Below the pieces are notes generated by a model that saw only the letters and a program-made list of their open reading frames with translations, did no database searches and was not told the origin of the DNA. The position numbers and the translations under genes were made by a program. This document shows positions 5,017 to 61,488 of a DNA stretch of 64,000 bases, piece after piece. Positions within the stretch are counted from its first letter, which is position 1, and every line of letters starts with the position of its first letter. Source of the DNA: a virus. The DNA is taken from positions 1 to 64,000 of IMG/VR virus record IMGVR_UViG_3300009509_000014, one strand, 5' to 3'.

Positions 5017-5029
5017 AATATACTCCTTA

Positions 5030-5103
5030 TGGGTGCGGGAGGATTCGAACCTCCACTATGTCGGACTTGACGCGACTGCCTCTGCCGATTGCGCTACGCA
5101 CCC
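5030..5103 (-). tRNA. tRNA-Leu-type (anticodon CAA) with short variable loop
   Basis: Acceptor GGGTGCG/CGCACCC, T-arm GGAGG-TTCGAAT-CCTCC, discriminator A. The only loop with U33 gives anticodon CAA (GTCAAGT). The anticodon stem has a C-C mismatch at its top and the D-stem has one mismatch. The variable region is only about 5 nt, although bacterial Leu tRNAs are type II. It is clearly related to the tRNAs at 5631 and 24931. The first 10 nt overlap the upstream CDS stop. Confidence 0.78.
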
Positions 5104-5597
5104 TTTTTGTGAAGCTCTTTATTCCAATCTGCCAAAGCATCAAGTACCCCTTTCCTGACCTCTACCATAATTGCCGTAGCGGCGTCTCCGGTACAACCGT
5201 TGAACTTTTCCATAAAATTGTCAGCAAACTCTATTTTCGTAGTAACGGTTGTATACGGACCATCTGGATTCGGCTCTATCGTTACCTTGATCTTCGACTG
5301 CAATTTCATTTTGCCTGCCGCCTTGTCATTATTTACACTGTATACATGAAATGGACTATTATCTGGAGTCCAGCCAAACGACGACGACGACGACGAAGAT
5401 GCTTCGTGTGAATATGTCCAAGACTCGGCTCCAACACCAGTAGTCCAATATTTGATTGGAGGAACCTTTATCTCATAAAACACTGGCGCTTCATGGTTTT
5501 GCTTATTAACATACTCTTCCATAGTCTTTTTGGCCGTCTCAAGTGCCTCATCAAAGGCTGCAGAACTTCCAGAGATTTTCATATTCATTTTCACCAT
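5094..5597 (-). CDS. Hypothetical protein with poly-serine tract
   Basis: 167 residues. A run of seven serines near residue 70 is encoded by a GAC/GAT-type repeat on the complementary strand. The N-terminal half is helical (DEALETAKKTMEEYVNKQ) and the rest is predicted beta-rich. No family recognised. ATG 5597 follows AAGGAA; the longer start runs into tRNA sequence. The TAG stop is inside the downstream tRNA. Confidence 0.65.
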   Translation of the reverse strand: MVKMNMKISGSSAAFDEALETAKKTMEEYVNKQNHEAPVFYEIKVPPIKYWTTGVGAESWTYSHEASSSSSSSFGWTPDNSPFHVYSVNNDKAAGKMKLQSKIKVTIEPNPDGPYTTVTTKIEFADNFMEKFNGCTGDAATAIMVEVRKGVLDALADWNKELHKKGA

Positions 5598-5630
5598 AGC
5601 ATATTCCTTGATGCGTGATTGCCAAACAGG

Positions 5631-5705
5631 TAGGAGCAGGAGGATTCGAACCTCCACTGTTCAGGGTCTAAACCTGTTGCCTCTGCCAAGTTGGGCTACA
5701 CTCCC
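5631..5705 (-). tRNA. tRNA-Leu-type (anticodon UAG) with short variable loop
   Basis: The acceptor GGGAGTG/TGCTCCT pairs with several G-U pairs. D-stem GCC/GGC, anticodon loop TTTAGAC (TAG), T-arm GGAGG-TTCGAAT-CCTCC, discriminator A followed by CC. The variable region is 4-5 nt. The anticodon reads CUA leucine codons, yet the body is class I. Confidence 0.85.
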
Positions 5706-5708
5706 GTA

Positions 5709-6005
5709 CTATACAATTCTCCATCTATATTCCCCCGCCTCCCTTTTGACTTGGTACAGCGGGAAACATTCTAGGGTTGAATAAATATAAACCCACCCTT
5801 CGTAATGGTTGCCTTTTCTGATGTCAACATAGGTCCAAAAGGTTCCATCGGATACACGCTCCAAAACCACGTCTCTTGTTTCAAAGCCGCCTTGTCTTGA
5901 TACCCAAGGGGTAGATTCGACAAACCTGAATTCGTATCCGGCAGTAACACCCTCATGAATGCACGTTTGGAACTGCACATCGTTTTTTACTATTATCTTA
6001 TTCAT
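5709..6005 (-). CDS. Hypothetical protein, 98 aa
   Basis: A beta-rich protein with no recognised family and no membrane segment. The second of two consecutive ATGs (6005) is preferred because it lies at a normal distance from AAGGAGG. Its stop is 3 nt from the 5' end of the downstream tRNA, part of the tight gene-tRNA packing here. Confidence 0.64.
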   Translation of the reverse strand: MNKIIVKNDVQFQTCIHEGVTAGYEFRFVESTPWVSRQGGFETRDVVLERVSDGTFWTYVDIRKGNHYEGWVYIYSTLECFPLYQVKREAGEYRWRIV

Positions 6006-6020
6006 CATTACCTCCTTTAG

Positions 6021-6111
6021 TGGGCGGGGCAGGAGTCGAACCTGCGATGTTTACCCTGCGGGATCGGTTTTACAGACCGACGCTACACAACCAACAGTAG
6101 ACCTCCCGCCC
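6021..6111 (-). tRNA. tRNA-Tyr (anticodon GUA)
   Basis: A 91-nt type II tRNA. Acceptor GGGCGGG/CCCGCCC, D-stem CTAC/GTAG, anticodon stem TCGGT/ACCGA with loop CTGTAAA (GTA), a long variable arm and T-loop TTCGACT. Discriminator A. Confidence 0.95.
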
Positions 6112-6336
6112 TTAATCTTCAGCGCGGACATTCCACAATGTTAATGCCTCACTTATGCTAAGGCGTGACGGACCCTCTGCTCCACACGTACTGCAATACA
6201 CACTATACACATACGGTATGTTTTTTGTGGAACCGTACCTGTTTAGCTCGAAGTCAATCTCCCCGCAAAACGGACAGACGCGAAGCTCAATTTTCCTATG
6301 CGCGGCTGGTATGTCTACAATCTTTGTACGCTCCAT
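6112..6336 (-). CDS. Lar-like restriction alleviation zinc-ribbon protein
   Basis: 74 residues. Two C-x-x-C pairs (CPFCG at about 21 and CSTCGAEGP at about 48) followed by S-E-A-L-T-L-W-N-x-R match the layout of Lar-family proteins (CPFCG, CxxCG-A-x-GP, A-x-x-x-WN-x-R). Lac prophage Lar modulates type I restriction and favours methylation; many phage members are only assigned by motif. ATG 6336 is better spaced from GAGGAG than ATG 6342. The stop abuts tRNA-Tyr. Confidence 0.75.
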   Translation of the reverse strand: MERTKIVDIPAAHRKIELRVCPFCGEIDFELNRYGSTKNIPYVYSVYCSTCGAEGPSRLSISEALTLWNVRAED

Positions 6337-6342
6337 AACCAT

Positions 6343-6643
6343 ACTCCTCTCATTACGCTCTAGGTTGGACGCTACCCCAACTCCAGGCTTGGCAGTCAGA
6401 AGAGGCCGCTACTCTCCCCCCTAGTAACACCACGCTACTTATCATGAATTTTCGCGTGATGCCGAGTGACGTTCACCTGGGCTAAGACTATATCCATGTG
6501 TCTGCGACTTTCCACATCGCTAGAGATTTTTACATTCCCGCCCGATGGGGGACAGCGGGATTGGTTCCCCGCCATCCCCCATCTTCGTGCGTTCTCCAGT
6601 TAAGCAGAGCCTAACTTAAAGTACCCCTATTCGGAAGGGGAGG
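6343..6643 (-). ncRNA. Structured non-coding stretch downstream of tRNA-Trp
   Basis: About 300 nt with no credible ORF, transcribed from the promoter at 6735-6763 through tRNA-Trp. Visible structures are CCCCT/AGGGG right after the tRNA (6624-6640), the nested hairpin GATGGGGGA/TCCCCCATC (6544-6583) with inner GCGGG/CCCGC, and GTTGG/CCAAC near 6363-6380. Neither strand shows a T-tract after the large hairpin. It may be a long 5' leader of the Lar-like gene or an independent RNA. No known family could be assigned. Confidence 0.5.
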
Positions 6644-6715
6644 CAGGGGTATGAGGACTCGAACCCCAATTCGCGGTGTTGGAGACCGCTGTCCTTCCAA
6701 TTGGACGATACCCCT
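6644..6715 (-). tRNA. tRNA-Trp (anticodon CCA)
   Basis: Acceptor AGGGGTA/TACCCCT, D-stem GTCC/GGAC, anticodon stem GCGGT/ACCGC with loop CTCCAAC (CCA), T-loop TTCGAGT, discriminator G. First gene after the 6.75-kb promoter. Confidence 0.96.
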
Positions 6716-6766: not shown

Positions 6767-6988
6767 TTATTCGGACAATATCAACGCTCTGATTTTATGC
6801 AGCTTGTCAGAAGCGGTGGTGTTGTATTCCCGAATGATGTCTTCTATAAGAGCCAGCGTACCTAAGTTTACCGTTTCGGTAAAGCTGTCTATTAGACCTT
6901 GTGCCTCATATTCATCAAGTTCCATTGGCCAACTTGGCACCTTCCCGTTCGGTAAAGATGTTTGTCTTTTTGATATTGATCGCTTCAT
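6767..6988 (-). CDS. Hypothetical protein, 73 aa
   Basis: A helical acidic protein after a basic N-terminal 18 residues. It overlaps the 3' end of the CCA-adding enzyme gene. The start at 6988 has an AGGAG 9 nt upstream; ATG 6925 would give 52 residues without a clear ribosome site. No family recognised. Confidence 0.55.
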   Translation of the reverse strand: MKRSISKRQTSLPNGKVPSWPMELDEYEAQGLIDSFTETVNLGTLALIEDIIREYNTTASDKLHKIRALILSE

Positions 6989-8363
6989 TTAACAGTACTC
7001 CTGACTTGTTTTCGATCTTTCCTTCTATCACTCCGTGCAGTAATACATTTAGTATTTCGCCAACTTCCTTGCCCTCTTCAATCGCAAGGGCCTCCATTAT
7101 GTCGTGTCCGTTAACTGCCAGGTCTGTAACCCTGAATACGGATTTCGCGTCAATCTCTGCATTTACAAGATTGAGTGCATAATTTTCTATCTTGAGAAGT
7201 TCTTTGCTTTGATCCTTGCCGTTAACGCCAAGGTCCTTCTTTACATCGGCAAAGCGTGTTAGAAAGACAAATGCCATACGTCTCTTAAGCTCTTCCGTTG
7301 AGTTATTCCCGCCGAGATCAATCTTGCTCAAAAACCTACGTGCGGCTGCTGGAGAATCAACTGTATACATATGATACCTAACCGAAAGCCAGATAAGCCT
7401 ACGAATATCCTCTGGCAATCGCAGCCGACTGGTGATTATTTCCGAAATATCAGCACCAGCCTGCTCATGCTGGTAAAAGGTAGCCCCGTATTCGCGGCTT
7501 TTGTACTGCCTAACAACTGGCTTCCCAATATCATGCAGTAAAACTGCAAGTTTATTGTTGGCCTTGTAGCCCAACTCATCAGCTTTCGCCATACACCTTA
7601 GAGTGTGCATCCACACGTCTTCAAAGTCGTGGTGTACATTCTGAGTTACGCCATTTAGTGCATATACTTCTGGCAAGATTACCTCTAGAAGCCCAAGGTG
7701 CTTTAGTGTCAGTATATACTTCATTGATATAGGAGACTCAAGCCCCTTCATAAACTCCTTACCAATTGCATCCCAGGACTCCCTTGCGATAAGGATTCTA
7801 TACTTGGTAATAGCTTCGATCAGATCGGGTTCGATAGTATACATGCTGTCGAGAGACGTGGCGAATCTTACATATCTCATCATTCTAATTGGGTGAGCCT
7901 TGATTCTCTTTACCGGATCGCCGATTGCACGGATTCTTCGCTTTGCAATATCATTACGACCTTCAAATGGATCAATTATGTTTCCATCATGATCCATAGC
8001 TATTGCATTTATAGTCATATCTCTCCTTGCCAAGTCTTCTGTTAGGTCGCTTGTAAAGCTAAACTTTACAGGCTTCCCGTCAACATAATCGGCGTCAGAT
8101 TCCTGTCTCATTGTGACGACTTCTACAAAGTCACCCTTCTCTATCGAAGGAACGTTAACTGACACAGAGAATGCAGCACTTATGATCGAAGAGCCGTCAA
8201 ACAAGTCGAGAATCTCTTTAGGAGTAGCACTTGTTACAACGTCGTAATCCTTGATCGGAAGCCCAAGATACGCATCCCTAACAGCGCCTCCAACAAGATA
8301 CGCCTGATGTCCAGCGTCAATCAGCTTCTTCATTATATCCCTGTACGACAAACCTTCGCCCAT
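6915..8363 (-). CDS. cca: CCA-adding tRNA nucleotidyltransferase with HD domain
   Basis: 482 residues. The N-terminus has the class II polymerase-beta nucleotidyltransferase signature GGAVRD (about 24-29) and K-D-Y-D (about 38-41), then R-R-D-x-T-I-N-A (about 114-121) and the poly(A) polymerase RNA-binding region. The C-terminal part has an HD phosphohydrolase motif (L-L-H-D-I-G-K near 276). It adds CCA to tRNA 3' ends. This fits the local tRNAs, only one of which encodes a full CCA. ATG 8363 after AGAGG was preferred over ATG 8378. A promoter lies at 8390-8418. Confidence 0.93.
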   Translation of the reverse strand: MGEGLSYRDIMKKLIDAGHQAYLVGGAVRDAYLGLPIKDYDVVTSATPKEILDLFDGSSIISAAFSVSVNVPSIEKGDFVEVVTMRQESDADYVDGKPVKFSFTSDLTEDLARRDMTINAIAMDHDGNIIDPFEGRNDIAKRRIRAIGDPVKRIKAHPIRMMRYVRFATSLDSMYTIEPDLIEAITKYRILIARESWDAIGKEFMKGLESPISMKYILTLKHLGLLEVILPEVYALNGVTQNVHHDFEDVWMHTLRCMAKADELGYKANNKLAVLLHDIGKPVVRQYKSREYGATFYQHEQAGADISEIITSRLRLPEDIRRLIWLSVRYHMYTVDSPAAARRFLSKIDLGGNNSTEELKRRMAFVFLTRFADVKKDLGVNGKDQSKELLKIENYALNLVNAEIDAKSVFRVTDLAVNGHDIMEALAIEEGKEVGEILNVLLHGVIEGKIENKSGVLLNEAINIKKTNIFTEREGAKLANGT

Positions 8364-8389
8364 AAGATTACCTCTCATTCTTTGGTATT

Positions 8390-30470: not shown

Positions 30471-31205
30471 ATGGCAGAGATTAGCTTGTGTATGATAACG
30501 TATAACAAATATCCATTTTTACGGAGAACGATTGCTGCGATTTTGGATAGTGTCGATGAATCTAAAGATACTGAGCTATTGATATATAACAACGGAAGTA
30601 CAGATTATACTACTAAATATCTTCCGATGCTCGAACATGCTTGTCCGGAATACATTAAATGCAAGGTCTTTTACGGAGACGAAAACATTGGGCTAAACGC
30701 ATATGGAGTAATTGTTCCGGAGGCTACTGGAGATATTATCGTTACAATAGACGATGACATTTTTGACATTCAGCCGCGTGGATGGGAGAAAATCTTCCGA
30801 AAGGCTTTGCATACAAGGTTTGATGGCAGGCGGTTTGGATATGTTAGCACGGATACAATGAATAAGGATGGAGGCAGATTGCCAGATCAAGCGATAGGGC
30901 TTGCTTCGATAGGTGGGTTAAATATAGAGGTTGGGCCTGCTGGTGGCTGGTTTGCGGCGACTACAAGGGAAGTTGTTGACCTTGTTGGTGGATTCCACAC
31001 AGGGAAAGGCAAGATGCACCTTGAGGATTTGGATTTCCAGCGTCGCGTGTGGGAGAAAGGGTTGCTTGTTGGGACTGTGCTAAATATAGAAGTATTTCAT
31101 GCAAGATCGCCAGAGGTCTATAAGCGATTTGGCAGGGAAGACACTTACCTAGAAAAAATGAGACTAGCACAACTTGAAGGGATCACTTTAGAGCCACTCG
31201 CTTGA
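30471..31205 (+). CDS. Family 2 glycosyltransferase
   Basis: 244 residues. L-C-M-I-T-Y-N-K (6-13), N-N-G-S-T-D-Y (41-47), I-V-T-I-D-D-D-I-F (the DxD metal site, about 89-97) and the late H-L-E-D-L-D-F-Q-R-R (ED acceptor motif) define a GT-A fold inverting enzyme. It would transfer a sugar from a nucleotide sugar. Placed between terminase and portal, so probably modifies a virion protein or phage-related glycan. Confidence 0.88.
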   Translation: MAEISLCMITYNKYPFLRRTIAAILDSVDESKDTELLIYNNGSTDYTTKYLPMLEHACPEYIKCKVFYGDENIGLNAYGVIVPEATGDIIVTIDDDIFDIQPRGWEKIFRKALHTRFDGRRFGYVSTDTMNKDGGRLPDQAIGLASIGGLNIEVGPAGGWFAATTREVVDLVGGFHTGKGKMHLEDLDFQRRVWEKGLLVGTVLNIEVFHARSPEVYKRFGREDTYLEKMRLAQLEGITLEPLA

Positions 31206-44800: not shown

Positions 44801-46995
44801 TGGCGATAACCCTTGGGAATACAACTTCATCTGGCACTCAAATAAATGCCAATACGTCATTTTCATTCTCGCACACAACACACGCAGACACAGACCTCCT
44901 TAACATTACGATTGTAGCACAGGACACCGTTACGTCAGATCGTAACGTAACAGGGGTTACGTTTAACGGCGTAGCTGCAACAGAGGTTGTTGCCATTGAA
45001 ACAGGCTCAACGAATATGACCGTTGAGATATGGCGTCTAACAGAAACATCTTACGGCACTAATCTTGGTGGAGTAACCGCAAACGTTCAGGTTACATTTG
45101 CTGGGAAGACAAGTACTTCTGTTGCCTGGAGTACAGATCTTATAGGTGTAAATCAAACAACGCCTGTACAAAATTCTAATACGGCATACGGAACAAGCAG
45201 TACACCGTCTGTAACAGTTTCCGGTGCTGTTGCTGGCAGTATGACAATAGGCGGCCTTGGCACAGCACAGGGTGATTCAACGCTTGTTAGTGTTACGACA
45301 GGAACACAACTTGCAGAAGAAGACGCTGGTCCAGTTGTGTTTGCCGCAGCATATAATTCTGGCAATGGTACATTAGCGTGGTATATAACAAGTAGTTTTC
45401 AGTGGCACATTGCCGCCGCAAATTATAATGAGGCTGCTACTGGCGGGAGTGGTAGTGTTACCGCAGACGCAATTATCGAAAAGTCTATATCGCAAAGTGT
45501 TAGCTCTGACTCCGTTATAGAGAAAAGCGTACAGCAGTCTGTTTCATCTGACGCAATAGTCATGGTATCGGAGTCTGGATTGGTGAGCGCAGACTCTACT
45601 ATTAAGTCACAGCAGCAGCAGTCAGTATCGGCTGACTCTGCCATTTTGAGATCTTTTTCACAGTCTGTAACCGTTGATGCAGTTGTAGAGTCTAGAGTAG
45701 AGGCGAGTTTCACAGCCGACGCATATATTTACGCAGAGGCAGTTACGTGGTATTACTGGAGCGAGATTTGGAGTAACCCTGTATCGACAGCGTACTCGGT
45801 CACAGCAGACGCAGTAATTCTAAGACAGGTATCTGACAGTATAATTGCTGACGCAATTGTTAAAAAGACCATATCTGGTTCTGTTACTGCAGATTCTACT
45901 ATAAAGAAGGCGGTAGAGCAATCTATCGCTGGCGATGCGGTTGTCAAGAAGTCAAATTCGCAGTCGGCTACTGTAGATGCGACTATCCGCGTTTTAACAG
46001 AGCAGTCAGTAGTCGCAGACGCGACGATTGAAAGCTCTGTTACCCAAAGCGTAAATGCAGACGCAATTGTTTTACGTGCAATATCGCAGAGCATGATCGC
46101 AGACTCTATTGTAAAGAGTAGTGCTGAACAGTCAGTAAGTGCCGACGCATATATTCTTTCACAGGCAACAGAAGACTCTATAACGGCTGACGCCATAATC
46201 AAAACTTCTGTATCGCAAAGTATAAGCGCAAACGCATACATTTTTGGTACAACGGTTCAGGATATAACCGCTGATGCTGTAATCAAGAAGGGTGCTAGCC
46301 AGTCTGTAACCGCAGATGCCGTTGTAGAAAGTGCGGTGTCGCAATCTATAAGTGCTGATGCCGTAATTCAAGCAACGGTCGAACAATCTATAAGTGCCGA
46401 TGCTGTAATTGAGAAATCTATATCTCAAAGCATTTCCGCTGATGCGACCATACTTGTATATAACGAGCAGAGCGTAGTCGCAGATGCTGTTGTAGAACGG
46501 TCTGTAGATTCGTCAGTGACCGCAGATGCCATTGTAGAAAGTACAGTATCTCAAAGCATAACTTCTAACGCCGTTGTTGAAACGACAGTTGAAAGCTCTA
46601 TAGCGGTAGACGCCGTTATTGAACGTTCGTGGCAACAGTCTGTAACGCTAGACGCGACAATTGTATGTGTTGGTACTCCAGTATGGGTTTCGCCGCCAGA
46701 TACTTCTGCGAGTGGCACGTTGCCAGTGTTTGTATTTGAGATTCCAGAGTCGGTAGGCGGTATGCACTTTAAGCTAGAACTTGACAAAGTGAATACCTTT
46801 GACGGTCCAGATTATAGGTTGATCGAAACTTGGATAAGTACAACTGGTTGGGAATACCATGACGGTGTTGGGTGGCAACCATTCCCGTCAAGCGGTGTCT
46901 CAAATGTATACTCAGGGAATGAGTGTAGGTATACGGTGCAGGTAGAATTGACAAGTGGCGTCTGGTATAGGAAGATCACAGGAGGTGTTGCATAA
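44800..46995 (+). CDS. Fibre-like protein with 14-residue TADA repeats (2)
   Basis: 731 residues. N-terminal beta domain (1-215), then about 28 units of the 14-residue repeat (about 218-625), interrupted once by a tryptophan-rich insertion (about 310-330, W-Y-Y-W-S-E-I-W). The C-terminal domain is homologous to that at 42666. The units differ from one another at DNA level, so the array is old or under selection. TAATG coupling on both sides. Confidence 0.8.
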   Translation: MAITLGNTTSSGTQINANTSFSFSHTTHADTDLLNITIVAQDTVTSDRNVTGVTFNGVAATEVVAIETGSTNMTVEIWRLTETSYGTNLGGVTANVQVTFAGKTSTSVAWSTDLIGVNQTTPVQNSNTAYGTSSTPSVTVSGAVAGSMTIGGLGTAQGDSTLVSVTTGTQLAEEDAGPVVFAAAYNSGNGTLAWYITSSFQWHIAAANYNEAATGGSGSVTADAIIEKSISQSVSSDSVIEKSVQQSVSSDAIVMVSESGLVSADSTIKSQQQQSVSADSAILRSFSQSVTVDAVVESRVEASFTADAYIYAEAVTWYYWSEIWSNPVSTAYSVTADAVILRQVSDSIIADAIVKKTISGSVTADSTIKKAVEQSIAGDAVVKKSNSQSATVDATIRVLTEQSVVADATIESSVTQSVNADAIVLRAISQSMIADSIVKSSAEQSVSADAYILSQATEDSITADAIIKTSVSQSISANAYIFGTTVQDITADAVIKKGASQSVTADAVVESAVSQSISADAVIQATVEQSISADAVIEKSISQSISADATILVYNEQSVVADAVVERSVDSSVTADAIVESTVSQSITSNAVVETTVESSIAVDAVIERSWQQSVTLDATIVCVGTPVWVSPPDTSASGTLPVFVFEIPESVGGMHFKLELDKVNTFDGPDYRLIETWISTTGWEYHDGVGWQPFPSSGVSNVYSGNECRYTVQVELTSGVWYRKITGGVA

Positions 46996-49259
46996 TGCCT
47001 AGTTACGCAAGACCTTCAAGTGATATTGCAGTAAGTACGTGGTATAAGTCAACTGGTCCTTCGCAAACTGACATTTATTTAGACATAGCCGAAGTGACAC
47101 GCGATGACAACGACTATATTTACTCTACTCCAGATGGCACTGTAGATTCAGCGCCGTGTGAAATAGGGTTGTCGTCACTGACCGATCCTCTCAGTTCTAG
47201 TGGTCATATCGTTCGCTATACATACAGACGTACAAAGACGAACAAAGACCTTACACTGGTTGTAAGGTTAAGGCAAGGATCGTCTACAACAATTGCTTCG
47301 TGGACACACACGAATCCGTCTGACGTTCTTGCACTTGCAGAACAAACGCTTACAAGTGGTCAAGCAGACAGTATAAGTGATTATACAGACCTTCGCTTGC
47401 AGTTTGAAGTAACCGTAAACGCTGGCGGAGGTGGTCACGCAGAGGTTACTTGGGCCGAGTTTGAAGTGCCTGGTGCTACGAGTGTTTCTGATTCTGTCAC
47501 GGCAGACTCTACAATAAAAAGGTCTGTAAGTCAAAGCGTAAACGCAGACGCAATTGTGCTATGGGCTGGAATGGCTGGAGACTTAACCGCCGACGCCATT
47601 GTAAAGAAGGGCGTTTCCAGTTCGGTTACAGCAGATTCCACGATACTGAGTACAAATTCTGACAGTGTTGTTGCAGATGCCGTTGTAGAAGTTTCTGTAG
47701 ATCAATCTGTGAGTGCTGATGCATACATTCAAACTGGTGGGCCTGTTCAGGACAGCATAACAGCAGATGCAACTGTACTGGTTGGACGTAGCGACTCCGT
47801 ACTTGCTGATGCCATTGTTGAAAGATCGGTTAGCCAATCTGTCATCGTAGATTCTACAATTGAGAAAACCGTAGAGCAAAGTATTTCGGTAAACGCTATT
47901 ATTTATGGTGTTGGTGCAGGTTCTATTGTTGCCGATGCCGTTGTTAAATCAAGCGTGTCTAATTCTGTACTTGTAGATGCTGTGATTGAACAATCTGTTA
48001 GCCAGTCTATCACAGTAAATTCTGTTATAGAGAAGTTAATAGAACAAAGTGTAACCGCAGGTGCCATGATCTCTGCTGGTGGCACTGGACTTATCACGGC
48101 AGACGCAACAGTTAAGGCTTCTAATGTTGGTTCTGTAACAGTGGACGCCCGTATTGCAGGGAGTGTATCAAGCTCGCTAACCGCAGATGCGGTCATTGAT
48201 CCTCCATGTTTTGGATACCCAAGTAGTATATGGAGTATCAATGTAACAGAGGCGCTGTATATTACAGCAGATGCCGCAATTAAAAAGAGCATCGCTTCAA
48301 GCATAGCCGCCGACGCCATAATTGAAAAGTCGATAAGTCAGGATATATCAGCAGACGCAATTGTAAAACACTCTATTTTAGAAAGTGTTACAGTTAATGC
48401 CGTTGTTGAAAAGGCTGTGTCTGGTAGTATAACTGCAGATGCTTATATAAGCAAGGTTGTTAGCGGATCAATAACCGCAGACTCCGTAATAGAAAAGGCA
48501 ATAGATCAATCTGTAACGGCTGATGCATTTATTTCTGTAACTGGCGCGGATATTATCCTTGCTGATGCTATTATCAAGAAGGCGCAGTCTCAGTCTATAA
48601 CCGCTGATGCGTGGATTGTAGAAACAATCAGTGATTCTGTTACACTTGACGCTGTAATAGAAAGATCTGTTTCTCAGGGTGTGTTGCTTGACGCTATTAT
48701 CAAGACTAGAGTTGAGAGCAGTATAGCTGTAGATGCTATTATATACTCAAGCCAATCTGATTCCGTTGTCGTTGACGCCATAATAGAATCGTCGTCAACT
48801 GGTGCAATAAGTGTAGACGCAGTTATTATCACAACAATAACGGATTCGTTTGTTGTAGACTCCATTATAAAGTCAACGGCGCTGAATTCCATCACAACTG
48901 ATGCTATAGTGAAGGGCGCTGTTAGCAATTCTATATTTGCAGATGCTGTTGTTGAGAAGAACCTGCCTCAGTCCGTGACAGCAGATGCACGGATTGTTAT
49001 TGCAGGTGCAGACAATTTCTCTGCCGATGCGTGGATTGTTATTGCAAGGGTTGGGAGTCTAACGATAGATGCTATAATAAGACTGGCTCCTTGCCCCGAT
49101 GTAACCGTGAATGTTATAGCCGATGCTATATTGTATAATACAGAAGATGATGAAGTATCTGTCAATCAGTCTTTTTACAATATCACTTGCAATATTTTGA
49201 GAAGTAGTGTAGAATGTGACTGTATAGTTGACAGTATTACATTTAATGAGAGATGCTGA
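46995..49259 (+). CDS. Fibre-like protein with 14-residue TADA repeats (3)
   Basis: 754 residues. A different N-terminal beta domain (1-160) precedes about 36 repeat units (about 163-690) with one insertion (about 405-425, C-F-G-Y-P-S-S-I-W-S) resembling that of protein 2. The C-terminus differs from the other two: a short cysteine-containing strand set (C-N-I-L...C-D-C-I-V). The longest of the family and likely a different receptor-binding or structural arm. Confidence 0.8.
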   Translation: MPSYARPSSDIAVSTWYKSTGPSQTDIYLDIAEVTRDDNDYIYSTPDGTVDSAPCEIGLSSLTDPLSSSGHIVRYTYRRTKTNKDLTLVVRLRQGSSTTIASWTHTNPSDVLALAEQTLTSGQADSISDYTDLRLQFEVTVNAGGGGHAEVTWAEFEVPGATSVSDSVTADSTIKRSVSQSVNADAIVLWAGMAGDLTADAIVKKGVSSSVTADSTILSTNSDSVVADAVVEVSVDQSVSADAYIQTGGPVQDSITADATVLVGRSDSVLADAIVERSVSQSVIVDSTIEKTVEQSISVNAIIYGVGAGSIVADAVVKSSVSNSVLVDAVIEQSVSQSITVNSVIEKLIEQSVTAGAMISAGGTGLITADATVKASNVGSVTVDARIAGSVSSSLTADAVIDPPCFGYPSSIWSINVTEALYITADAAIKKSIASSIAADAIIEKSISQDISADAIVKHSILESVTVNAVVEKAVSGSITADAYISKVVSGSITADSVIEKAIDQSVTADAFISVTGADIILADAIIKKAQSQSITADAWIVETISDSVTLDAVIERSVSQGVLLDAIIKTRVESSIAVDAIIYSSQSDSVVVDAIIESSSTGAISVDAVIITTITDSFVVDSIIKSTALNSITTDAIVKGAVSNSIFADAVVEKNLPQSVTADARIVIAGADNFSADAWIVIARVGSLTIDAIIRLAPCPDVTVNVIADAILYNTEDDEVSVNQSFYNITCNILRSSVECDCIVDSITFNERC

Positions 49260-52280: not shown

Positions 52281-52556
52281 ATGGAAGAGAAAATAGACGA
52301 TGGTTTCTTGACTTGTATGCAAGCATGTGATACAATCTCCTTGATGCTTGGAATGGACATTAACAGCTTGATCGCGAATGGCCTTGAATTTACTAAGGCA
52401 ATTGCGATAGTATTAAACACAGATATTAAGAAACTGCCAGTTGGTATGGTGAAACCTATTGCAAATGTTCAGAGTGCAATACTTGAGTTTCTGGAAGGAA
52501 ATAGAGAGAATGAAGATTTTAACAGTGGCCCCTGGGCCAAAATTCTCAACGTATGA
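52281..52556 (+). CDS. Hypothetical protein, 91 aa
   Basis: A helical protein with two hydrophobic patches but no clear membrane segment. It starts 1 nt after the terminator-like gene and overlaps the glycosyltransferase by 47 nt. Unknown. Confidence 0.55.
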   Translation: MEEKIDDGFLTCMQACDTISLMLGMDINSLIANGLEFTKAIAIVLNTDIKKLPVGMVKPIANVQSAILEFLEGNRENEDFNSGPWAKILNV

Positions 52557-53586
52557 TACATTTATGTATTATACCAGGGCATTTGCTAGTTTAGGGCATG
52601 AAGTTTCAGCATTTAACTATCACGACCATTATGCGTATCATGCAACTGCGCTGGCTTACGTTGAAGACGAAGACCCCGAAGATCAGGGGTTGCAGGCTAG
52701 GGCAATTATGCTGGCTGCCGAAGACTTAATATCTAGGATAGCCAGGAAGGGACCTGAGTTTATCTTTGTGGTTTCTGGACTTGCATTACCACCTGGGGTG
52801 TGGGACTGGCTTGATACATTTAACGGAATGTTAAAGAATCGGTTTAAGACAATGGTTCTGTTTACGGAGTCTCCGTATATAGATGAGAGCCAATACCCAA
52901 TCCTTGAAAGGGTTGATATTGCGGCTACAACTGATAAGGCAAGCCTTGACAGCTTCTTATCGGTAAACAAAAACTCTATATATGTTAGACACGCATACGA
53001 ACCGACGGTACACAAGCCGATGCCAATGTCTGAAAGGCATATGGCTGACGTGTTCATGGTTGGGACTGGATTCCCTGAGAGGATCAATCTCCTAACAAGC
53101 GTTAATTGGGACGGTATTGACTTGAGATTGTTCGGTGGGAATTGGGGCGACCTAGGCGAAGAACTGGACAAGTATTATGTACCAGAATTTTTGTCCAACG
53201 AAGAGGAAGTCCCGTATTACTACACGAACTCAAAGATAAACCTTAACATTTACAGAACGGCCAAGTGGCCTGGAAAAAATGTGACACACATTGATCCAGA
53301 ACTTGCTTATAGCGTGTCGCCGCGCTGCTATGAGATTTTAGGATGCGGCGGGTTCCTTCTAACCGACTCACGGCCAGAGTTGTTAGAACTCTTTAGGGAT
53401 GGAAGGGACTTGGTAGTTTTTGACGGGGCAGATGACCTATCAGAGAAGATAAGGTATTATCTGAACCGTCCGCGCCAGAGGGAGAGAATCTCTGCGTCTG
53501 GCATGAGAGCCGTTGCGGAGCATACATATATGAATCGTGCGGCAGAAATTTCAAAATACTTAGATAATAACTGGAGGGTGTTATAA
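52510..53586 (+). CDS. GT-B glycosyltransferase (CgeB-like)
   Basis: 358 residues. M-K-I-L-T-V-A-P-G start, a two-domain Rossmann layout, and a C-terminal S-V-S-P-R-C-Y-E-I-L-G-C-G-G-F-L-L-T-D block typical of GT-B enzymes of the CgeB/spore-maturation type. ATG 52510 is internal to the preceding gene. The gene interrupts the tail module between terminator and tube genes, so a virion protein may be its substrate. Confidence 0.8.
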   Translation: MKILTVAPGPKFSTYDTFMYYTRAFASLGHEVSAFNYHDHYAYHATALAYVEDEDPEDQGLQARAIMLAAEDLISRIARKGPEFIFVVSGLALPPGVWDWLDTFNGMLKNRFKTMVLFTESPYIDESQYPILERVDIAATTDKASLDSFLSVNKNSIYVRHAYEPTVHKPMPMSERHMADVFMVGTGFPERINLLTSVNWDGIDLRLFGGNWGDLGEELDKYYVPEFLSNEEEVPYYYTNSKINLNIYRTAKWPGKNVTHIDPELAYSVSPRCYEILGCGGFLLTDSRPELLELFRDGRDLVVFDGADDLSEKIRYYLNRPRQRERISASGMRAVAEHTYMNRAAEISKYLDNNWRVL

Positions 53587-53987
53587 TGGCAAAGGTAGTA
53601 TGTATAGACGCCCTGGTATACTTCAATGGGGATGTTTTGGCAGAGCGTTCGGACGCAACTATTAGTTGGGATACCGATATCGCCGAAGCTCGTCCATTTA
53701 AGGCTTCTGCAGCGGAAGCGTTCGCCGACAAGTCACCGACTTGGAAGAGCTGGACTGCATCCCTGGAAGGCTTTTATGATGACAGCGACGACGCGCTTGT
53801 AACTGCTGCTATTGCCAACACTCGCGGAATGTTGATTGTATATCCGACACGCGCCAATATGACGAATTATTGGTACGGATATGCCTACATCGCGAACGTT
53901 GAGCATGGCATCAATTCGGAAGACTTCTCAAGCCTCAGTGGTGAGGCCGAAGGTGACGGGACTCTTAAGTGGGTAAATAACGCATAG
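53586..53987 (+). CDS. Major tail tube protein
   Basis: 133 residues. V-V-C-I-D-A-L-V-Y-F, W-T-A-S-L-E-G-F-Y-D, and a C-terminal G-E-A-E-G-D-G-T-L-K-W follow the beta-barrel layout of tail tube subunits. TAATG coupling to the glycosyltransferase. A large hairpin follows. Expected in many copies per virion. Confidence 0.76.
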   Translation: MAKVVCIDALVYFNGDVLAERSDATISWDTDIAEARPFKASAAEAFADKSPTWKSWTASLEGFYDDSDDALVTAAIANTRGMLIVYPTRANMTNYWYGYAYIANVEHGINSEDFSSLSGEAEGDGTLKWVNNA

Positions 53988-54070: not shown

Positions 54071-54523
54071 ATGGCGAATTACAGATGGGACGAAGAAAAT
54101 CCTCTTGTTCTCTATATCGAAGACGAAGAGGTAAATCTTGAGACTAAGGGTGTGGAGTATGCAAGGCAGTTTGGTCGGCTAACTTCATGGCTTGGTCGAT
54201 ATGCACTTCCTGCGCTTGCGAGTGCGCTGGATGCTGGAGACATTGAACAGGGCGATGATTATAGCGTTGCCTTCAACCTCTTGGCGAACTTTATGGACCT
54301 TGGGTTCTCGCCAGAGTCACTCGTAGAGCTTTCTGGAATTCTGATCAATCGCGATGATGCGTTTGTTGAAGAATACTTTGATCCAGGATGGTTTGTAGAA
54401 GCACTCCTGAGATCGTTTGATTACCGGCCTGGAGTTAAGTCTGCGTTTGTGAGTTTGTATCAACGGTTTTTTCTGGCAATACGCACCAACTCCGATGATG
54501 CAGAGGATCAAGCATCAGATTAG
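54071..54523 (+). CDS. Tail assembly chaperone (gpG-like)
   Basis: 150 residues, acidic, helical, placed between tail tube and tape measure as in nearly all siphoviruses. Near its end the codons CGG TTT TTT followed by CTG form a possible shift site. The next gene is in the +1 frame. Confidence 0.74.
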   Translation: MANYRWDEENPLVLYIEDEEVNLETKGVEYARQFGRLTSWLGRYALPALASALDAGDIEQGDDYSVAFNLLANFMDLGFSPESLVELSGILINRDDAFVEEYFDPGWFVEALLRSFDYRPGVKSAFVSLYQRFFLAIRTNSDDAEDQASD

Positions 54524-54878
54524 ACAGGCTTATGGATACACTGACGAACAGATATTAAGCCATATTCAGGAATATAGTGAGGAGTGGGCTTATGACTCTT
54601 ATCAGTTTATCATGGAAGATAAGGTAACTCATTGGCAGACATTAATGGCAGTAATGCCATTGGCCAGAACGCCATCTGATAAAAAGTTCTCAAAGTCCTT
54701 GATAAAATACACAAAGGACTTGAGAAAGTCGATAGAATTAACATTTGCGCCTTGGATGGAGCAAAAGAGAATAGAGGCTATCAAAAAGAGGTTGGCAAAA
54801 CCTCCAGAGGGTGTAATGGTAGATGAAACTGGCAAGAAGATCGACCTTAGCGATCCGGAGTGGTGGAAAAAGTTATGA
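54495..54878 (+). CDS. Tail assembly chaperone, second frame (gpT-like)
   Basis: 127 residues from its own ATG pair, overlapping the first chaperone by 29 nt with no clear ribosome site. Its frame is open only from about 54450, so a +1 shift at the TTTTTTC stretch would join the two into a gpGT-type protein. It ends in acidic-tryptophan D-P-E-W-W-K-K-L. Confidence 0.7.
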   Translation: MMQRIKHQIRQAYGYTDEQILSHIQEYSEEWAYDSYQFIMEDKVTHWQTLMAVMPLARTPSDKKFSKSLIKYTKDLRKSIELTFAPWMEQKRIEAIKKRLAKPPEGVMVDETGKKIDLSDPEWWKKL

Positions 54879-55663
54879 GTAGGGATAAGTTTATAGTCCT
54901 TGACGATAGAGTAGAAGTAAGGTGGTCGTCCAGAACGAAGACACATTATGAATCACTAGGTTATGACTACACAATGATGGGTGACTCGTTCAGGGTTGAC
55001 GTTACAGACCTTCCGCCTAAGTCAAAGATGAAGGTTCTTGTACAGTGTCCGGAATGTGGGGCTACAAGAAGGGTAGCTTGGCAATCTATCGTTGATAAGG
55101 ATGATACATATTGCCAGAAGTGCGCTTCTAAAGTTGCAAACTTTGAGGATTTGACCGGACGAACATTTGGGCGGCTATTTGTTATAGCATTAGCAGATCG
55201 CCGTGGAGCTAGAGGGCAGTATTATTATACTTGCCAGTGTGACTGTGGGAATATCACAGAAGTTGAGGGCGGGTCCCTCTCTTTCGGCGCGACTCAATCT
55301 TGCGGATGTTTACAGAAAGAGATTTCTAGTGAGCGTATGAGCCAGATGACGGGCGAGAAAAACGCGATGTGGGATGCAACGAAAAGTGACGAAGATCGGT
55401 ATAGTAGGCATACAGAAGCCGATCATAAAAGATGGCGCGATGAAGTCCTTGAACGTGATGGATATGCTTGCAGAAGATGTGGGTCTGAGAAAACCCTTCA
55501 TGCACACCACATATTCCCGTATACTGCACATCCAGAGCTTAGAACGGACATAGATAACGGAATAACTCTATGTAATAAATGTCACTCTGCGTTTCACGGC
55601 GGGTATGGCGCGAATGCAACCAATGTGGAGCTTGAGGAATTTATGGAGGAGTATATTAGTTAG
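54875..55663 (+). CDS. HNH homing-type endonuclease
   Basis: 262 residues. N-terminal DNA-binding region with C-P-E-C-G...C-Q-K-C (zinc), a middle G-R-T-F-G-R-L block, and a C-terminal HNH nuclease: C-R-R-C-G, L-H-A-H-H-I-F-P, N-G-I-T-L-C-N-K-C-H...F-H-G. It interrupts the tail module between chaperone and tape measure, the usual place for a free-standing homing gene. Stop/start overlap ATGA upstream. Confidence 0.9.
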   Translation: MSRDKFIVLDDRVEVRWSSRTKTHYESLGYDYTMMGDSFRVDVTDLPPKSKMKVLVQCPECGATRRVAWQSIVDKDDTYCQKCASKVANFEDLTGRTFGRLFVIALADRRGARGQYYYTCQCDCGNITEVEGGSLSFGATQSCGCLQKEISSERMSQMTGEKNAMWDATKSDEDRYSRHTEADHKRWRDEVLERDGYACRRCGSEKTLHAHHIFPYTAHPELRTDIDNGITLCNKCHSAFHGGYGANATNVELEEFMEEYIS

Positions 55664-58600
55664 TGGCGACTCCAGTAATCATTGAAGTAAAGGCAAACGC
55701 CTCACAAGCCAAGCGCGAACTTAATAGCATTGGCGCATCAATGAAATCATTTGGCTCCAGTATACGGTCTGTTATAGCTATGTCTTCACAGGCCGTTACT
55801 GGTGTTCGCCAGATGGCACAGGGATTGCAAAACCTTGGTTTTACCATGTCTGCCATGATTGGCTTGCCAGTCGCAGCCGCTATGAAGAATATTGCTGAGG
55901 AAGCAACATCATTCGAAAAGGCTATGGTTGAGGTTGAAAAGACCACTGGTATTGCCAAGAAAGAGATTATGGATTTGGGCGAGCAGATTCGTGATCTCGC
56001 CATGACAACGCCAACATCTGCAAGGGAACTTGCAAATCTCGCTGCAGAAGCAGGCCGCGCAGGTGTTGGACTTGGTAACACTCTTGCTGGGAATATTGAG
56101 GGTGCAAAGGCTGAGATTCTGGAGTTTGTCCGTGTTATGGACATGATGCAGGTGTCTACAACGCTTACTGGAACGGAGTCGGCTAAAGCATTTTCAAGAA
56201 TCATAACACTGTTTGACGAGATAGACACAACTAATATTGAGAATTTGGGTTCGGCAATCAACGAGCTAGGTCAGGCTACTTCCGTTTCTGAGGATGAGAT
56301 CGTTGGGGCTATGTTGCGTATTGCGCCTGCGGCTGTAACCCTTGATATGACGGCGGCGCAGGTTGCTGGCCTTGCAACTGCAATTACCCAAATGTCAGAA
56401 AGTATGTCTCGCGGTGGTACAAGTGTTCGCGTTGCCCTTGACCAGATGGCTATCAATTATGAGGAAGCAGCCAAGCTGATCGGGGTAAGTACCGAAGAGA
56501 TGAAGAGCCGCATGAATGACGAAGCGTTGCCTGTCTTCATGGAGCTTGTCTATGCTATGGGGCAAATAGACGATGCGACAACGGCAACTGCCGTTGCGGT
56601 AGATATTTTCGGTACAACTGGTGGCAAGGCTGTAAGGAGATTCGCTGAAGCCTATCCAGAGCTACTAGAATTGATGGCATTGTCAAGCTACGCATTTGAA
56701 GAAGGCACATCACTTCAAACAGAGTTTAATCGTGCGTTAACGGCAACTGCTAGTCAATTTGATATCCTCAAGAATGCAATTACAGAGGCGGGGTTAAGAT
56801 TTGCTGATGACCTGCTCCCAATCGCGCAGGAGATAATCTCTGCATTGATACCAGCCGTCCAAGAACTAGCCGATTGGGTTGGGAACCTGACAGTGGAGCA
56901 GAAAATGCTTGCCGTTGGGATTGCAGCCTTGGTAACAGTCGGGCTTCCACTTTTGGCCCTGCTAGGTTCAATAGGTTTTGGGTTCTCAATGATCATCAAC
57001 GGTGCTGTGAATTTAATAGGTGGTATCGTTGGATTAACCGCGACTGTTCTTACTTTTGGCGGGGGCCTTGCTTCGTTAAGCACAATAATAACAGCACTCG
57101 CTGCACTTGTCGGAGGAGTACTTGTAGCGAAACTCATTGATGGCGGGAAGGGATTTGATGTCATCATGGAAAAGTTGCGCGAAGTTGCAAGTGGGGCATT
57201 TGATTGGGGCGAAAATTTAATCGCTAATATTGCAGAAGGTATAGTCTCTAGTGCGGCAACTGTGCTAGTGAATGCCCTGGAGTTTGTTGGGAATATAATC
57301 TCAAGTTTCTTGGAAGGTCACTCGCCTCCAGATGTTGGACCTCTTAGCACGATTGGTGAATGGGGTGCTAGACTTATAGACACTTATCTGCGGGGGTTCT
57401 TTAACGCAGATTTTAGTGTGCTGAAAAAAGTTTCTGGCATAATATCAGATGTACTACAAACATTTGTCGATATTGGCAGAATTCAAGATATAGATTTTGG
57501 GCCAATGCTTGCAAGCGCAAGAACATTCGTTGCAGAGTTTATTAACACATTTAATAAAACTGGTGTGATATCCGAAAGCATATTAAGTAAAATCTCTAGT
57601 ATGCTTGGGGAAACTGGCGACGAAATAACTAAACTATTGCGACTGCAAATGCAATACAACCAGGCTGTAAAAGAACTTGACAGAATTCGCCAAAGCATGA
57701 CCGACATAGAAGAATCTTACAGCGCAGAAGCCAGGGCAATCGCTGCGCGTACAGACCTTACAGAAGCAGAGAAGATGGTTGCGATTCGCTCTGCAAAGAA
57801 ACGTCGCGATCTTGCCCTTACAAATGCGGCAACAGAACGCGATGTGGCCCAGGATAATGTTGATAGCCTTAAAGATGAGGTTAGTTGGCAAGAACAATAC
57901 ATTGGCGCGATGCAGGATCAGGATGATGTTCTTACGGATCACATGAAGGTTATTAACAAGCTGACAAAGGCCATAAAGAGTGTTGGGAATGCTGTAAAGT
58001 CGCTTGCAGATAAGATTCGCGACTTGATAGCTGATCTTCTAAAACAGCTTGCATTGAACGAAAGGCTCAAAGAGCTTTATGAAAGCAAGGGAATGGACAC
58101 AACTCCGCTACTTAGAGAAGAGTTGAGTCTTCGCAAAAGACTGGTTAAAGCCCTGATGGAAAAGAAGCTTATGTTCGAAGAAATGAACAAAGAGCTTCCA
58201 GAGTCAGACTGGCTTAGCCTTTCGGCAGAAGAAGAAGCTATGATTAGCACCAATCTGGATCGCATACAAGAACTTGAAAGCTATCTTGACTCTCTTTCTG
58301 GAGCAAAGTCGGTCAAGATTCCATCAATTGATACGTCGGACGCCGATAAGGCGAAGGATGCAATAGACGACACAATCTCTCAGCTTTCAAGGCTTGGGAG
58401 TACAGTGTCAAATGTTTTGGCAGAAGGTCCAAAGTTTTGGGAGGCCTTCAAGGCTGGGTTAACCGGAGGTACAATTGAGCCAATTGTAGCTGGGATTGAT
58501 CCGAAAGATGCCAAGGGTGGCCTTCAAGAGTTTGGACAGATGTTTATCCCTGAGCTTGATTCTACATCTGCCAAGTTCTATGAGTGGGGACAGAAGATAA

Positions 58601-61488
58601 AAGAAGTCATTGATAAAGTCAAGACGAAAATTGAGGAGTTGACAACAGCTTGGGAAACTGCAAAAACTAAAATAACTACAACTATTGACAATCTCAAGGG
58701 TTCGGTAGATAGAATCTTTAGCGGTGGGAAGGTTGGTGCTACCGCAGGCGACATAGTTCCTGGCATACAGGAATTTGGGCAACAGTTCATTGTGGCCGAA
58801 GATGCCACTATGGGATTTGGAGAGAAGATTAAGAAGCTGCTCCCAATCCTTGCTGCCGGTGGAGCAGCACTGTTTGTGCTTCGTGGACCGTTGCTAAAAC
58901 TGCTAGGATTGCTTGCAGGAACAGGTGTTGTTGGAAAGTTTGGTTCAGCAATAGGGGGGCTTGTTGGTCCTAATGGGCCACTTGGAAGTTTGGCAGAATG
59001 GGCAACTGAGAGCCTTGGGATATTCCCGAAGATGAAGAGTGGTTTGGGGGCATTGACTGGGGTTGCTGGTAAGGCGAAGTCTGGATTTGTTGGTATGGGA
59101 GAGGGGCTTGCCAGGATTCTCGGTGTGGCATCAAAGAAGGTTGTAACCTTCATCAACCTGTTTGGCGCTAAGGGTGGCATAAAGGGTGCCGTTGCTCAGT
59201 TCGGCGGATTGTTAAAAAGCGGTGTCGGGAAAGGTCTTACTGGAGTATTGTCTCTCGCTAAAGGTGGAATTGGGACACTTATTGGGAGTATTGCATCTTC
59301 AATCGGCCCGATTGTTGCTACAATTGTAAAATTTATTGGCGCATTTACTGCAATTGGAGGCGCTGTTATTGCGGCCATAATTGCTGTAGTCGCAACCATT
59401 AAGTATATGAAGGATCATTGGGAGGACTTTAAGGATTCCTTTATAGAAATATGGGATAACATAAAATCTGCCATTAAAGGGTTCGTTGACAGCTTTAAGA
59501 AAGCTCTTGGTATCACCGGAGAGAAAGGTATAGATTTTAAGAAAATCCTTGATGACATTTATAAAAAGGCAGAGCCTGTTGCTAAATTCTTAGCTGGCGC
59601 ATTTACAAAGGCACTCCTTGTTATTAGCGGACTCCTTAAAACAGTATTGCCTGCTGTTGGCAAGGCCATTGGTGGGATATTCAAGGGCATTACCTGGGTT
59701 GCGTCTGGAATCTTAGATGTGCTTAGTGGTATTTTCAAGTTCTTTGAGGGATTATGGCACGGAATTTCTGATGGTGATTGGTCAATGCTTACAGACGCCT
59801 GGGAAAAGATTAAAGAGGGTGCCAAAGAAATCTTCGGCGGGATTGCCGTTGCAATTGGTGGTGTCTTTTCAGGTATATATGATGTTGTTGTCGGCGTTGT
59901 AAGGAATATCATAGACAGCATTAAGAAGGCAATTAGCGGAAACAAATTCCTGTCTTCGCTGTTTGGCGGTATAGGCGAATGGTTTAATAAAGTCAAGCAG
60001 TCGTTCCAGCCTGTAATTGATACGGTTAAAAATGTAATAGCCTATGTGAAGAAGGCATACAAGATTGTTAAAAGTGCATTTAGTTTTGGTGGAGCAGTAA
60101 AAGGCTTTGCCGCCTTGGCTAATGTTATTAAGCCACTAAAGAAGGTGCTAGGGCCAGTTTTGGAAGTATTCTGGAGGCTGTGGAAGGTTGTCAGCCCACT
60201 CATTGAAGCATTTAAGTCTGGATTTGCAGAGGGTGGATTTAAGGGTGCGTTTGAGAAAATTAAAGAGATATTGCCAGAGGTACTAGGGAATTTGTGGAAA
60301 TTACTTGGCAGTCTTGTAACGATGGTTCCGAAGATGCTCTCAGGAATAGCCCAAATGCTATGGCCTTGGATTCAGAATACACTAATTCCTTGGGTAATGG
60401 GGGTTGTAAATACTGTTTGGGAATATCTAAAAACGAATGTTCCAATTTGGGTAACGGCAATCTTAGCAGCCCTTGGAGTACTTGTTGCGAAGTTATGGTT
60501 GTGGATAACAGAAACGCTAATTCCTTGGGTTACTGGCATGATTTCACAGGTTTGGACATATATAAAAGATAACGCGCCAGTTTGGCTGAAGGCAATTATG
60601 GCCGTTCTTGAAACCGCAGCCGTTGCGATGTGGGGGTGGGTTTCTGGAACATTGATTCCTTGGGTGGTAGATGTAATTAAGAAAGTTTGGGATTATCTAA
60701 AAGAGCATGGACCTGACTGGATAGCCAAATTCCTAGAGATATTGGCGACAGTAGCAGTTGCAATATGGGGCTGGATAACAGAGACACTTATTCCGTGGAT
60801 TGTAGATGTTATAAGAACAGTTGCAGATTATATAGCAACGAATGGACCAAAGTGGCTAGCAAAACTCGCAGTTGTATTAAGGAGTCTTGCCGTGAAACTT
60901 TGGAACTGGATAACTACGACAGTAGTGCCGTGGCTGAAAGATATAATTGACAAGGGTAAAGAATGGCTTGGGAAGATTGCAACAGAGTGGTGGGAAAAAG
61001 TTAAGACTGGACTTAATAAGATAAGGGAAAAGTTCAGGACTATATTTGAGTCTATAAAAACAATCATAGCGTCTGCACTCAAGACTGCGATCAACGGAAT
61101 GATTAGCGCACTTGAGAGAGGTATAAACAAGGTTGTTGATGGAATAAACGACTTTATCAAGAAAATAAACACTATCCTTACAAAGATGGGGATTGGTGAA
61201 ATTGGGCTTCTTGGCAAGATCAGTATCCCAAGACTTGCAAAGGGTGGTATTGCCATACAAGAACAATTGGCAATAGTTGGCGATGTTCCAGAGGCAATTA
61301 TACCGCTTGACAGATTGCCTGACTTTATGGGTGTAGCGAACCAGGCACAGCAGCCAGTGCATATCGAAATAAGGGACAACACCGTGCGGAGTGAGGACGA
61401 CTTGCAGCAAATAATCCGCGCCGTAGAAAGGCAGTTGGGGATTAGCCTTGGAGCAAAAAGAAGGATGCTGTCTAGGAGCTTTGGATAA
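55663..61488 (+). CDS. Tape measure protein
   Basis: 1941 residues. The N-terminus (about 60-400) is of the TP901/phage-minor-tail type (F-E-K-A-M-V-E-V-E-K-T-T-G). Several glycine-rich hydrophobic segments (about 415-500, 1060-1110, 1190-1250) and long coiled-coil regions follow. Residues about 1560-1765 hold five 45-residue repeats with the core T-L-I-P-W-V. At 1.5 angstrom per residue the tail would be about 290 nm. It sets tail length and helps DNA entry. GTG start shares one nt with the upstream stop. Confidence 0.92.
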   Translation: MATPVIIEVKANASQAKRELNSIGASMKSFGSSIRSVIAMSSQAVTGVRQMAQGLQNLGFTMSAMIGLPVAAAMKNIAEEATSFEKAMVEVEKTTGIAKKEIMDLGEQIRDLAMTTPTSARELANLAAEAGRAGVGLGNTLAGNIEGAKAEILEFVRVMDMMQVSTTLTGTESAKAFSRIITLFDEIDTTNIENLGSAINELGQATSVSEDEIVGAMLRIAPAAVTLDMTAAQVAGLATAITQMSESMSRGGTSVRVALDQMAINYEEAAKLIGVSTEEMKSRMNDEALPVFMELVYAMGQIDDATTATAVAVDIFGTTGGKAVRRFAEAYPELLELMALSSYAFEEGTSLQTEFNRALTATASQFDILKNAITEAGLRFADDLLPIAQEIISALIPAVQELADWVGNLTVEQKMLAVGIAALVTVGLPLLALLGSIGFGFSMIINGAVNLIGGIVGLTATVLTFGGGLASLSTIITALAALVGGVLVAKLIDGGKGFDVIMEKLREVASGAFDWGENLIANIAEGIVSSAATVLVNALEFVGNIISSFLEGHSPPDVGPLSTIGEWGARLIDTYLRGFFNADFSVLKKVSGIISDVLQTFVDIGRIQDIDFGPMLASARTFVAEFINTFNKTGVISESILSKISSMLGETGDEITKLLRLQMQYNQAVKELDRIRQSMTDIEESYSAEARAIAARTDLTEAEKMVAIRSAKKRRDLALTNAATERDVAQDNVDSLKDEVSWQEQYIGAMQDQDDVLTDHMKVINKLTKAIKSVGNAVKSLADKIRDLIADLLKQLALNERLKELYESKGMDTTPLLREELSLRKRLVKALMEKKLMFEEMNKELPESDWLSLSAEEEAMISTNLDRIQELESYLDSLSGAKSVKIPSIDTSDADKAKDAIDDTISQLSRLGSTVSNVLAEGPKFWEAFKAGLTGGTIEPIVAGIDPKDAKGGLQEFGQMFIPELDSTSAKFYEWGQKIKEVIDKVKTKIEELTTAWETAKTKITTTIDNLKGSVDRIFSGGKVGATAGDIVPGIQEFGQQFIVAEDATMGFGEKIKKLLPILAAGGAALFVLRGPLLKLLGLLAGTGVVGKFGSAIGGLVGPNGPLGSLAEWATESLGIFPKMKSGLGALTGVAGKAKSGFVGMGEGLARILGVASKKVVTFINLFGAKGGIKGAVAQFGGLLKSGVGKGLTGVLSLAKGGIGTLIGSIASSIGPIVATIVKFIGAFTAIGGAVIAAIIAVVATIKYMKDHWEDFKDSFIEIWDNIKSAIKGFVDSFKKALGITGEKGIDFKKILDDIYKKAEPVAKFLAGAFTKALLVISGLLKTVLPAVGKAIGGIFKGITWVASGILDVLSGIFKFFEGLWHGISDGDWSMLTDAWEKIKEGAKEIFGGIAVAIGGVFSGIYDVVVGVVRNIIDSIKKAISGNKFLSSLFGGIGEWFNKVKQSFQPVIDTVKNVIAYVKKAYKIVKSAFSFGGAVKGFAALANVIKPLKKVLGPVLEVFWRLWKVVSPLIEAFKSGFAEGGFKGAFEKIKEILPEVLGNLWKLLGSLVTMVPKMLSGIAQMLWPWIQNTLIPWVMGVVNTVWEYLKTNVPIWVTAILAALGVLVAKLWLWITETLIPWVTGMISQVWTYIKDNAPVWLKAIMAVLETAAVAMWGWVSGTLIPWVVDVIKKVWDYLKEHGPDWIAKFLEILATVAVAIWGWITETLIPWIVDVIRTVADYIATNGPKWLAKLAVVLRSLAVKLWNWITTTVVPWLKDIIDKGKEWLGKIATEWWEKVKTGLNKIREKFRTIFESIKTIIASALKTAINGMISALERGINKVVDGINDFIKKINTILTKMGIGEIGLLGKISIPRLAKGGIAIQEQLAIVGDVPEAIIPLDRLPDFMGVANQAQQPVHIEIRDNTVRSEDDLQQIIRAVERQLGISLGAKRRMLSRSFG

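Follow-up and report, generated by a model that had tools for sequence, protein, structure and literature searches.

The window analysed here is a stretch of 64,000 nucleotides from an uncultivated bacterial virus (IMGVR_UViG_3300009509_000014, positions 1 to 64,000). On its plus strand, a major tail protein gene (53586..53987; phrog_1407 major tail protein, E = 1.9e-10) is followed by a pair of overlapping open reading frames and, further downstream, by a tape measure gene (55663..61488). The latter encodes 1941 residues, the first 512 of which match annotated tape measure proteins (best match, 2e-29). An HNH endonuclease ORF (54860..55663, plus strand; PF01844, E = 7.7e-9; GTG start at 54860, alternative ATG at 54875) intervenes between the ORF pair and the tape measure gene and overlaps the end of the second frame of the pair. 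By eye, both relatives described below have a like ORF in the corresponding position. Glycosyltransferase genes are also present in the structural module (52459-53586 and 30471-31205), and both relatives have a glycosyltransferase-like ORF ahead of the major tail protein gene. A 754-aa ORF at 46995-49259 looks, by eye, like a series of numerous short SVxADAxI-type repeats. Of the 14 tRNA genes that ARAGORN detected in the window, 12 lie at 34-6715, adjoined by a gene with PolyA_pol/tRNA nucleotidyltransferase domains (6918-8378).

The overlapping pair is presumed to encode a tail assembly chaperone, a label based on the order of the genes and the arrangement of the frames rather than on homology. 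PHROG searches returned no tail family (best E values of 0.11 for ORF1 and 0.21), nor did Pfam (best E value of 0.093; no match to ORF1 at E ≤ 1), and tblastn against phages gave no match at E ≤ 1 for either half. A comparison by hhalign with the two genes located before the tape measure gene of Hardycor1 was also negative. The AlphaFold models were poor (mean pLDDT of 45.6 and 65.0), and a fold search with the poor model of the second half was empty at E ≤ 0.001. The match of the tape measure protein to Hardycor1 raised the possibility of an archaeal host, which was rejected owing to the presence of bacterial-type recA and DNA polymerase III beta genes in the phage; these genes point to a bacterial host.

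The first frame of the pair, ORF1 (54071..54523, plus strand), extends from ATG 54071 to TAG 54521-54523 and would yield, by standard decoding, a short chaperone of 150 aa (gpG-like). The second frame is open at 54453..54878 on the same strand, and its portion from 54474 onward would form the C-terminal extension (gpT-like) of a presumed 268-aa fusion. Both frames are open from the putative shift site to the ORF1 stop (54474..54523). The initial annotation had described the second frame as lying +1 relative to the first, open only past a stop at about 54450, and devoid of a ribosome binding site. All three statements were borne out: the +1 frame ends at 54878; it is preceded by TGA 54450-54452 and opens 14 nt before a run of six T residues; and its earliest ATG, GTG or TTG codon, ATG 54495, showed no Shine-Dalgarno pairing (duplex energy of +1.9 kcal/mol). 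The corresponding value was -5.5 kcal/mol for the ORF1 start, and the reference median was -6.3 kcal/mol (n = 19 listed positions, including 52504, which is not a start codon). Weak Shine-Dalgarno pairing was also found at two of the 18 other listed starts, 27738 (+1.5 kcal/mol) and 30471 (-0.4 kcal/mol).

Scans of viral contigs and genome contigs identified only two further contigs carrying the chaperone gene, L001 (IMGVR 3300009509_000068) and L002 (IMGVR 3300010413_000201). Their fused proteins are 77% and 70% identical to that of the window, respectively, the identity amounting to 80% and 77% for ORF1 and to 72% and 61% for the protein encoded by the +1 frame (54453..54878). In both relatives, TTTTTTC is in phase 0 of ORF1, the +1 relation of the two frames is kept, and the second ORF ends at the corresponding place; the +1 frame opens 29 nt before TTTTTTC, after TAA. 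The site pattern was present in 56 stretches of viral contigs; only L001 and L002 combine it with a long ORF1 that continues into a long +1 ORF. Neither chaperone profile matched any of five contigs that carry related terminase genes, and the site was absent from them even with 2 mismatches allowed. These misses say little since, judged from the terminase positions, the three longest (L066, L068 and L069) stop short of the tail region if they share the gene order, and the remaining two are short. L066 (IMGVR 3300010413_000032; 60,692 bases) encodes a terminase 100% identical to that of the window and has no match to the chaperone profiles; it ends about 20 kb past the terminase start, short of the expected tail genes.

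The sequence TTTTTTC (54467..54473, plus strand) is read as TTT TTT C in phase 0 of ORF1 in all three genomes. Codons 133 and 134 of ORF1 are TTT TTT, followed by CTG, and the zero-frame TTT at 54470-54472 is followed by C 54473 in 3/3 genomes, as at the UUU_C site of influenza A PA-X. We infer that the +1 frame is entered at this position, TTT 54470-54472/C 54473. The initial annotation had proposed that tRNA-Phe slips here from UUU to UUC and had considered that relatives might lack the run of T. The opposite was found, both relatives (2/2) carrying TTTTTTC in the same phase, and the proposed slip is supported to this extent. A sequencing error in the T run is unlikely since three diverged contigs agree. 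A product of the -1 frame was also rejected because, counted from the beginning of the run, this frame stays open for only 9-10 codons in both relatives.

With the putative site itself left out, TTT TTT C does not occur in frame anywhere in the 40 gene stretches listed for the window. These stretches contain 14 Phe-Phe pairs, five of which are coded by TTT TTT, none of the five (0/5) with C as the next base. The same stretches have 24 in-frame occurrences of TTT-C, and ORF1 of L002 has one more in its early part. Thus, UUU_C alone cannot suffice as a signal, and the tandem UUU_UUU_C is the better candidate. Phe codons in these 40 stretches also avoid TTT before C: 24 of 70 Phe codons located before C are TTT, whereas TTT makes up 362 of the 499 that precede A, G or T. 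Tyr, Asn and Asp showed no comparable effect, and His and Cys showed it only slightly. This avoidance could be due to selection against slippery UUU_C or to neighbour bias.

Conservation around the site was evaluated in a gapped alignment (878 columns) based on three genomes only, the window, L001 and L002. The longest invariant block is a core of 15 nt, GGTTTTTTCTGGCAA (54465..54479, plus strand), which contains the T run; three further invariant blocks of 14 nt are located over the ORF1 start, inside ORF1, and over the ORF1 stop. Among the 150 comparable third positions of ORF1, 94 vary between the three genomes. The longest run of invariant third positions comprises eight (54466-54487) and begins at the site; the next, of seven (54505-54523), is also within the overlap, and all others are of four or fewer. 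Variable third positions in 54466-54487 (0/8) were compared with those just upstream (46/60; Fisher p = 4.3e-5) and with those in all of ORF1 before the site (90/130; p = 1.4e-4), a wobble test in which selection for slipping and selection on the amino acids of the second frame after the site look alike. Synonymous change was likewise absent from TTT TTT CTG GCA (0/4 codons) versus 34/44 upstream codons for invariant residues (p = 0.005). From the site onward, both frames are constrained. Of the 50 columns in the overlap (54474..54523), 14 are variable, with no codon position favoured; by comparison, the third position is variable in 46 of 61 ORF1 codons just upstream of the site and in 81 of 100 downstream ORF2 codons. 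The freeze after the T run is to be ascribed in part to the requirement of the +1 frame for those bases. The invariant 14-nt block at 54510-54523 spans the last ORF1 codons and the stop, which may mean that the C terminus of the short product is likewise under selection.

The +1 frame is also conserved ahead of any start codon of its own. The peptide FFWQ[YH]AP[TS], with 6 of 8 residues kept, is encoded upstream of the earliest ATG, GTG or TTG of this frame in all three genomes. For the three sequence pairs, the codon differences between the site and ATG 54498 were synonymous in 3, 1 and 2 cases and nonsynonymous in 3, 3 and 3 cases in the +1 frame, versus 1, 0 and 0 synonymous and 4, 5 and 4 nonsynonymous cases in the zero frame, all of these being few events. 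As judged from the conserved FFWQ[YH]AP[TS], selection acts on the second frame from the T run on, ahead of its first start codon. The locus thereby displays two features of G/GT-type chaperone genes, an overlapping second frame conserved before its first start and a conserved slippery sequence in the overlap, each in 3/3 genomes.

These data bear on the possibility that ORF2 is translated separately, by internal initiation or by termination-reinitiation at ATG 54495 or 54498, no fusion being made. These codons are located 23-26 nt before the ORF1 stop codon, and phage operons often have overlapping stop and start regions, which would fit such a scheme. An ATG is present at the column of 54498 in 3/3 genomes, and L001 has GGAG 3 nt before this ATG (-5.4 kcal/mol), but a Shine-Dalgarno site is absent from the window and from L002. 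Separate translation accounts neither for the +1-frame residues kept upstream of the first start nor for codon differences that are, on few events, more synonymous in the +1 frame than in the zero frame, and it leaves the frozen TTT TTT unexplained. We therefore regard it as very unlikely. Together, the sequence comparisons indicate that the two halves are very probably fused by recoding at or beside TTTTTTC, this estimate covering +1 and -2 shifting of the ribosome and transcript slippage alike.

Among these routes, a programmed +1 ribosomal frameshift in the tail assembly chaperone gene is the best single account, and we consider it probable. According to this account, most ribosomes would read ORF1 to TAG and release the 150-aa product. 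In a minority of ribosomes, peptidyl-tRNA-Phe would be paired with UUU (54470-54472), with CUG waiting in the A site; following a +1 move, the anticodon would re-pair with UUC (54471-54473) and UGG would be read. The shifted ribosomes would continue to 54878, producing the 268-aa fusion (...YQRFFWQYAPTP...), and the shift, as well as the loss of one U, would give the tryptic peptide FFWQYAPTPMMQR. Slippage one codon earlier, from UUU to UUU, would result in an identical peptide. In tail assembly, by analogy to lambda gpG/gpGT, the fusion would connect the tape measure protein to the major tail protein.

Codon usage is in agreement with a forward shift, the +1 A-site codon TGG being commoner than CTG (22.1 versus 9.0 per 1000, frequencies derived from 15 genes). 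The program PRFect, as described, requires the +1 A-site codon to be commoner than the zero-frame codon at forward sites (PMC10885494). The favoured model for PA-X involves UUU_C slippage, tRNA-Phe binding UUC better than UUU (PMC3498833). A point against the +1 account is that, at RF2-type sites, UUU_U is reported to be much weaker than CUU_U (PMC5009743).

Searches for stimulators were negative. Downstream RNA structure was not supported in the three genomes versus shuffled sequence, either in 100 nt (z-scores of -0.42, 0.89 and -0.43) or in 60 nt (0.40, 0.59 and -1.38); the consensus fold contains a 6-pair stem, two pairs of which are broken in L001, and both-sided changes were found in none of the 15 fold pairs. 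Pairing of an upstream Shine-Dalgarno-like stimulator was not conserved (-2.2, -5.2 and -1.1 kcal/mol in the three genomes), and no stop codon was found as a stimulator at the site. The A-site codon is not rare, CTG representing 13.7% of Leu codons; CGN is preferred in the known UUU_C set. No tRNA-Phe or tRNA-Leu(CAG) gene that could act as a modulator was found among the 13 of 14 window tRNA genes with an anticodon readable by ARAGORN, and the 73.9-kb record, which may be incomplete, contains none outside the window. It is conceivable, although we put this forward as a tentative and rather doubtful proposal, that bare UUU_UUU_CUG shifts the bacterial ribosome by +1, the tandem UUU_UUU_C in the E and P sites acting as the sole signal without any stop codon, rare codon, internal Shine-Dalgarno sequence or RNA structure.

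Backward shifts are often accompanied by downstream structure, which received no support here, and this observation weighs on the alternative of a -2 ribosomal frameshift on the same U run. In that case, tRNA-Phe would move from UUU 54470-54472 back to UUU 54468-54470, with UUC read next; the run of six U permits full re-pairing two bases back. The same frame would be reached with one additional Phe (YQRFFFWQY), and the tryptic peptide would be FFFWQYAPTPMMQR. This route has a documented precedent in the tail assembly gene of phage Mu, as reported (PMC5009743; PMC3498833), but -2 shifts are rare in print, and +1 slippage of one tRNA gains a better pair (UUC). A -2 shift thus appears unlikely. 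The six-T run would equally suit slippage of RNA polymerase, some transcripts dropping one U (or gaining two) and then being read normally; the loss of one U would lead to the same protein as the +1 shift. Productive slippage of bacterial RNA polymerase occurs mainly on longer runs, of about nine, which makes this explanation highly improbable. We infer that a shift occurs, that it is of +1 size and that it is made by the ribosome. For annotation, a +1 shift would make an orphan ORF of 127 aa the C-terminal half of a protein of 268 aa.

Chaperone frameshifts have been published in the -1, -2 and +1 directions (PMC5009743). With lambda gpG/gpGT, as described (PMC5009743), the locus shares a pair of overlapping ORFs ahead of the tape measure gene, together with a short product and a frame-shifted fusion, the latter being presumed here; in contrast, lambda shifts by -1 whereas the second frame here is +1, and the two halves have no significant PHROG or Pfam match. 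The same heptanucleotide, UUUUUUC, is found in the tail chaperone gene 17.5/17.5* of SPP1, where the published description is of a putative -1 shift (PMC6316719), whereas the phase UUU_UUU_C here would direct a +1 shift. If the bare site were sufficient, one heptamer would serve for -1 in SPP1, as reported, and for +1 here, its phase within the gene setting the direction. Forward sites in the SEA-PHAGES collection, mostly in chaperone genes, have the same direction and gene type, and forward sites represent 350 of the 2718 sites of the PRFect positive set, according to the published account (PMC10885494). A +1 shift described as very likely in halovirus HSTV-2 also shares direction and gene type (PMC5009743). 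Outside phages, PA-X of influenza A (UCC_UUU_CGU) has UUU_C at the shift, with tRNA-Phe re-pairing with UUC, and this +1 slippage is reported to be backed by protein data (PMC3498833); it differs in involving the eukaryotic ribosome and in having the rare CGU as A-site codon and UCC as E-site codon, in place of the common CUG and of UUU here. In the open-access literature consulted, no phage chaperone was encountered that has a +1 site of the form UUU_UUU_C. The finding is sound and ordinary in kind, and the site mildly unusual. It provides a conserved and well-bounded candidate +1 site in a type of gene in which -1 shifts are more familiar, and this short site could show what the bacterial ribosome needs for a forward slip without a stop or a rare codon. 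The locus would represent a variation on the production of short and long helper proteins from one gene, a device widespread among long-tailed phages.
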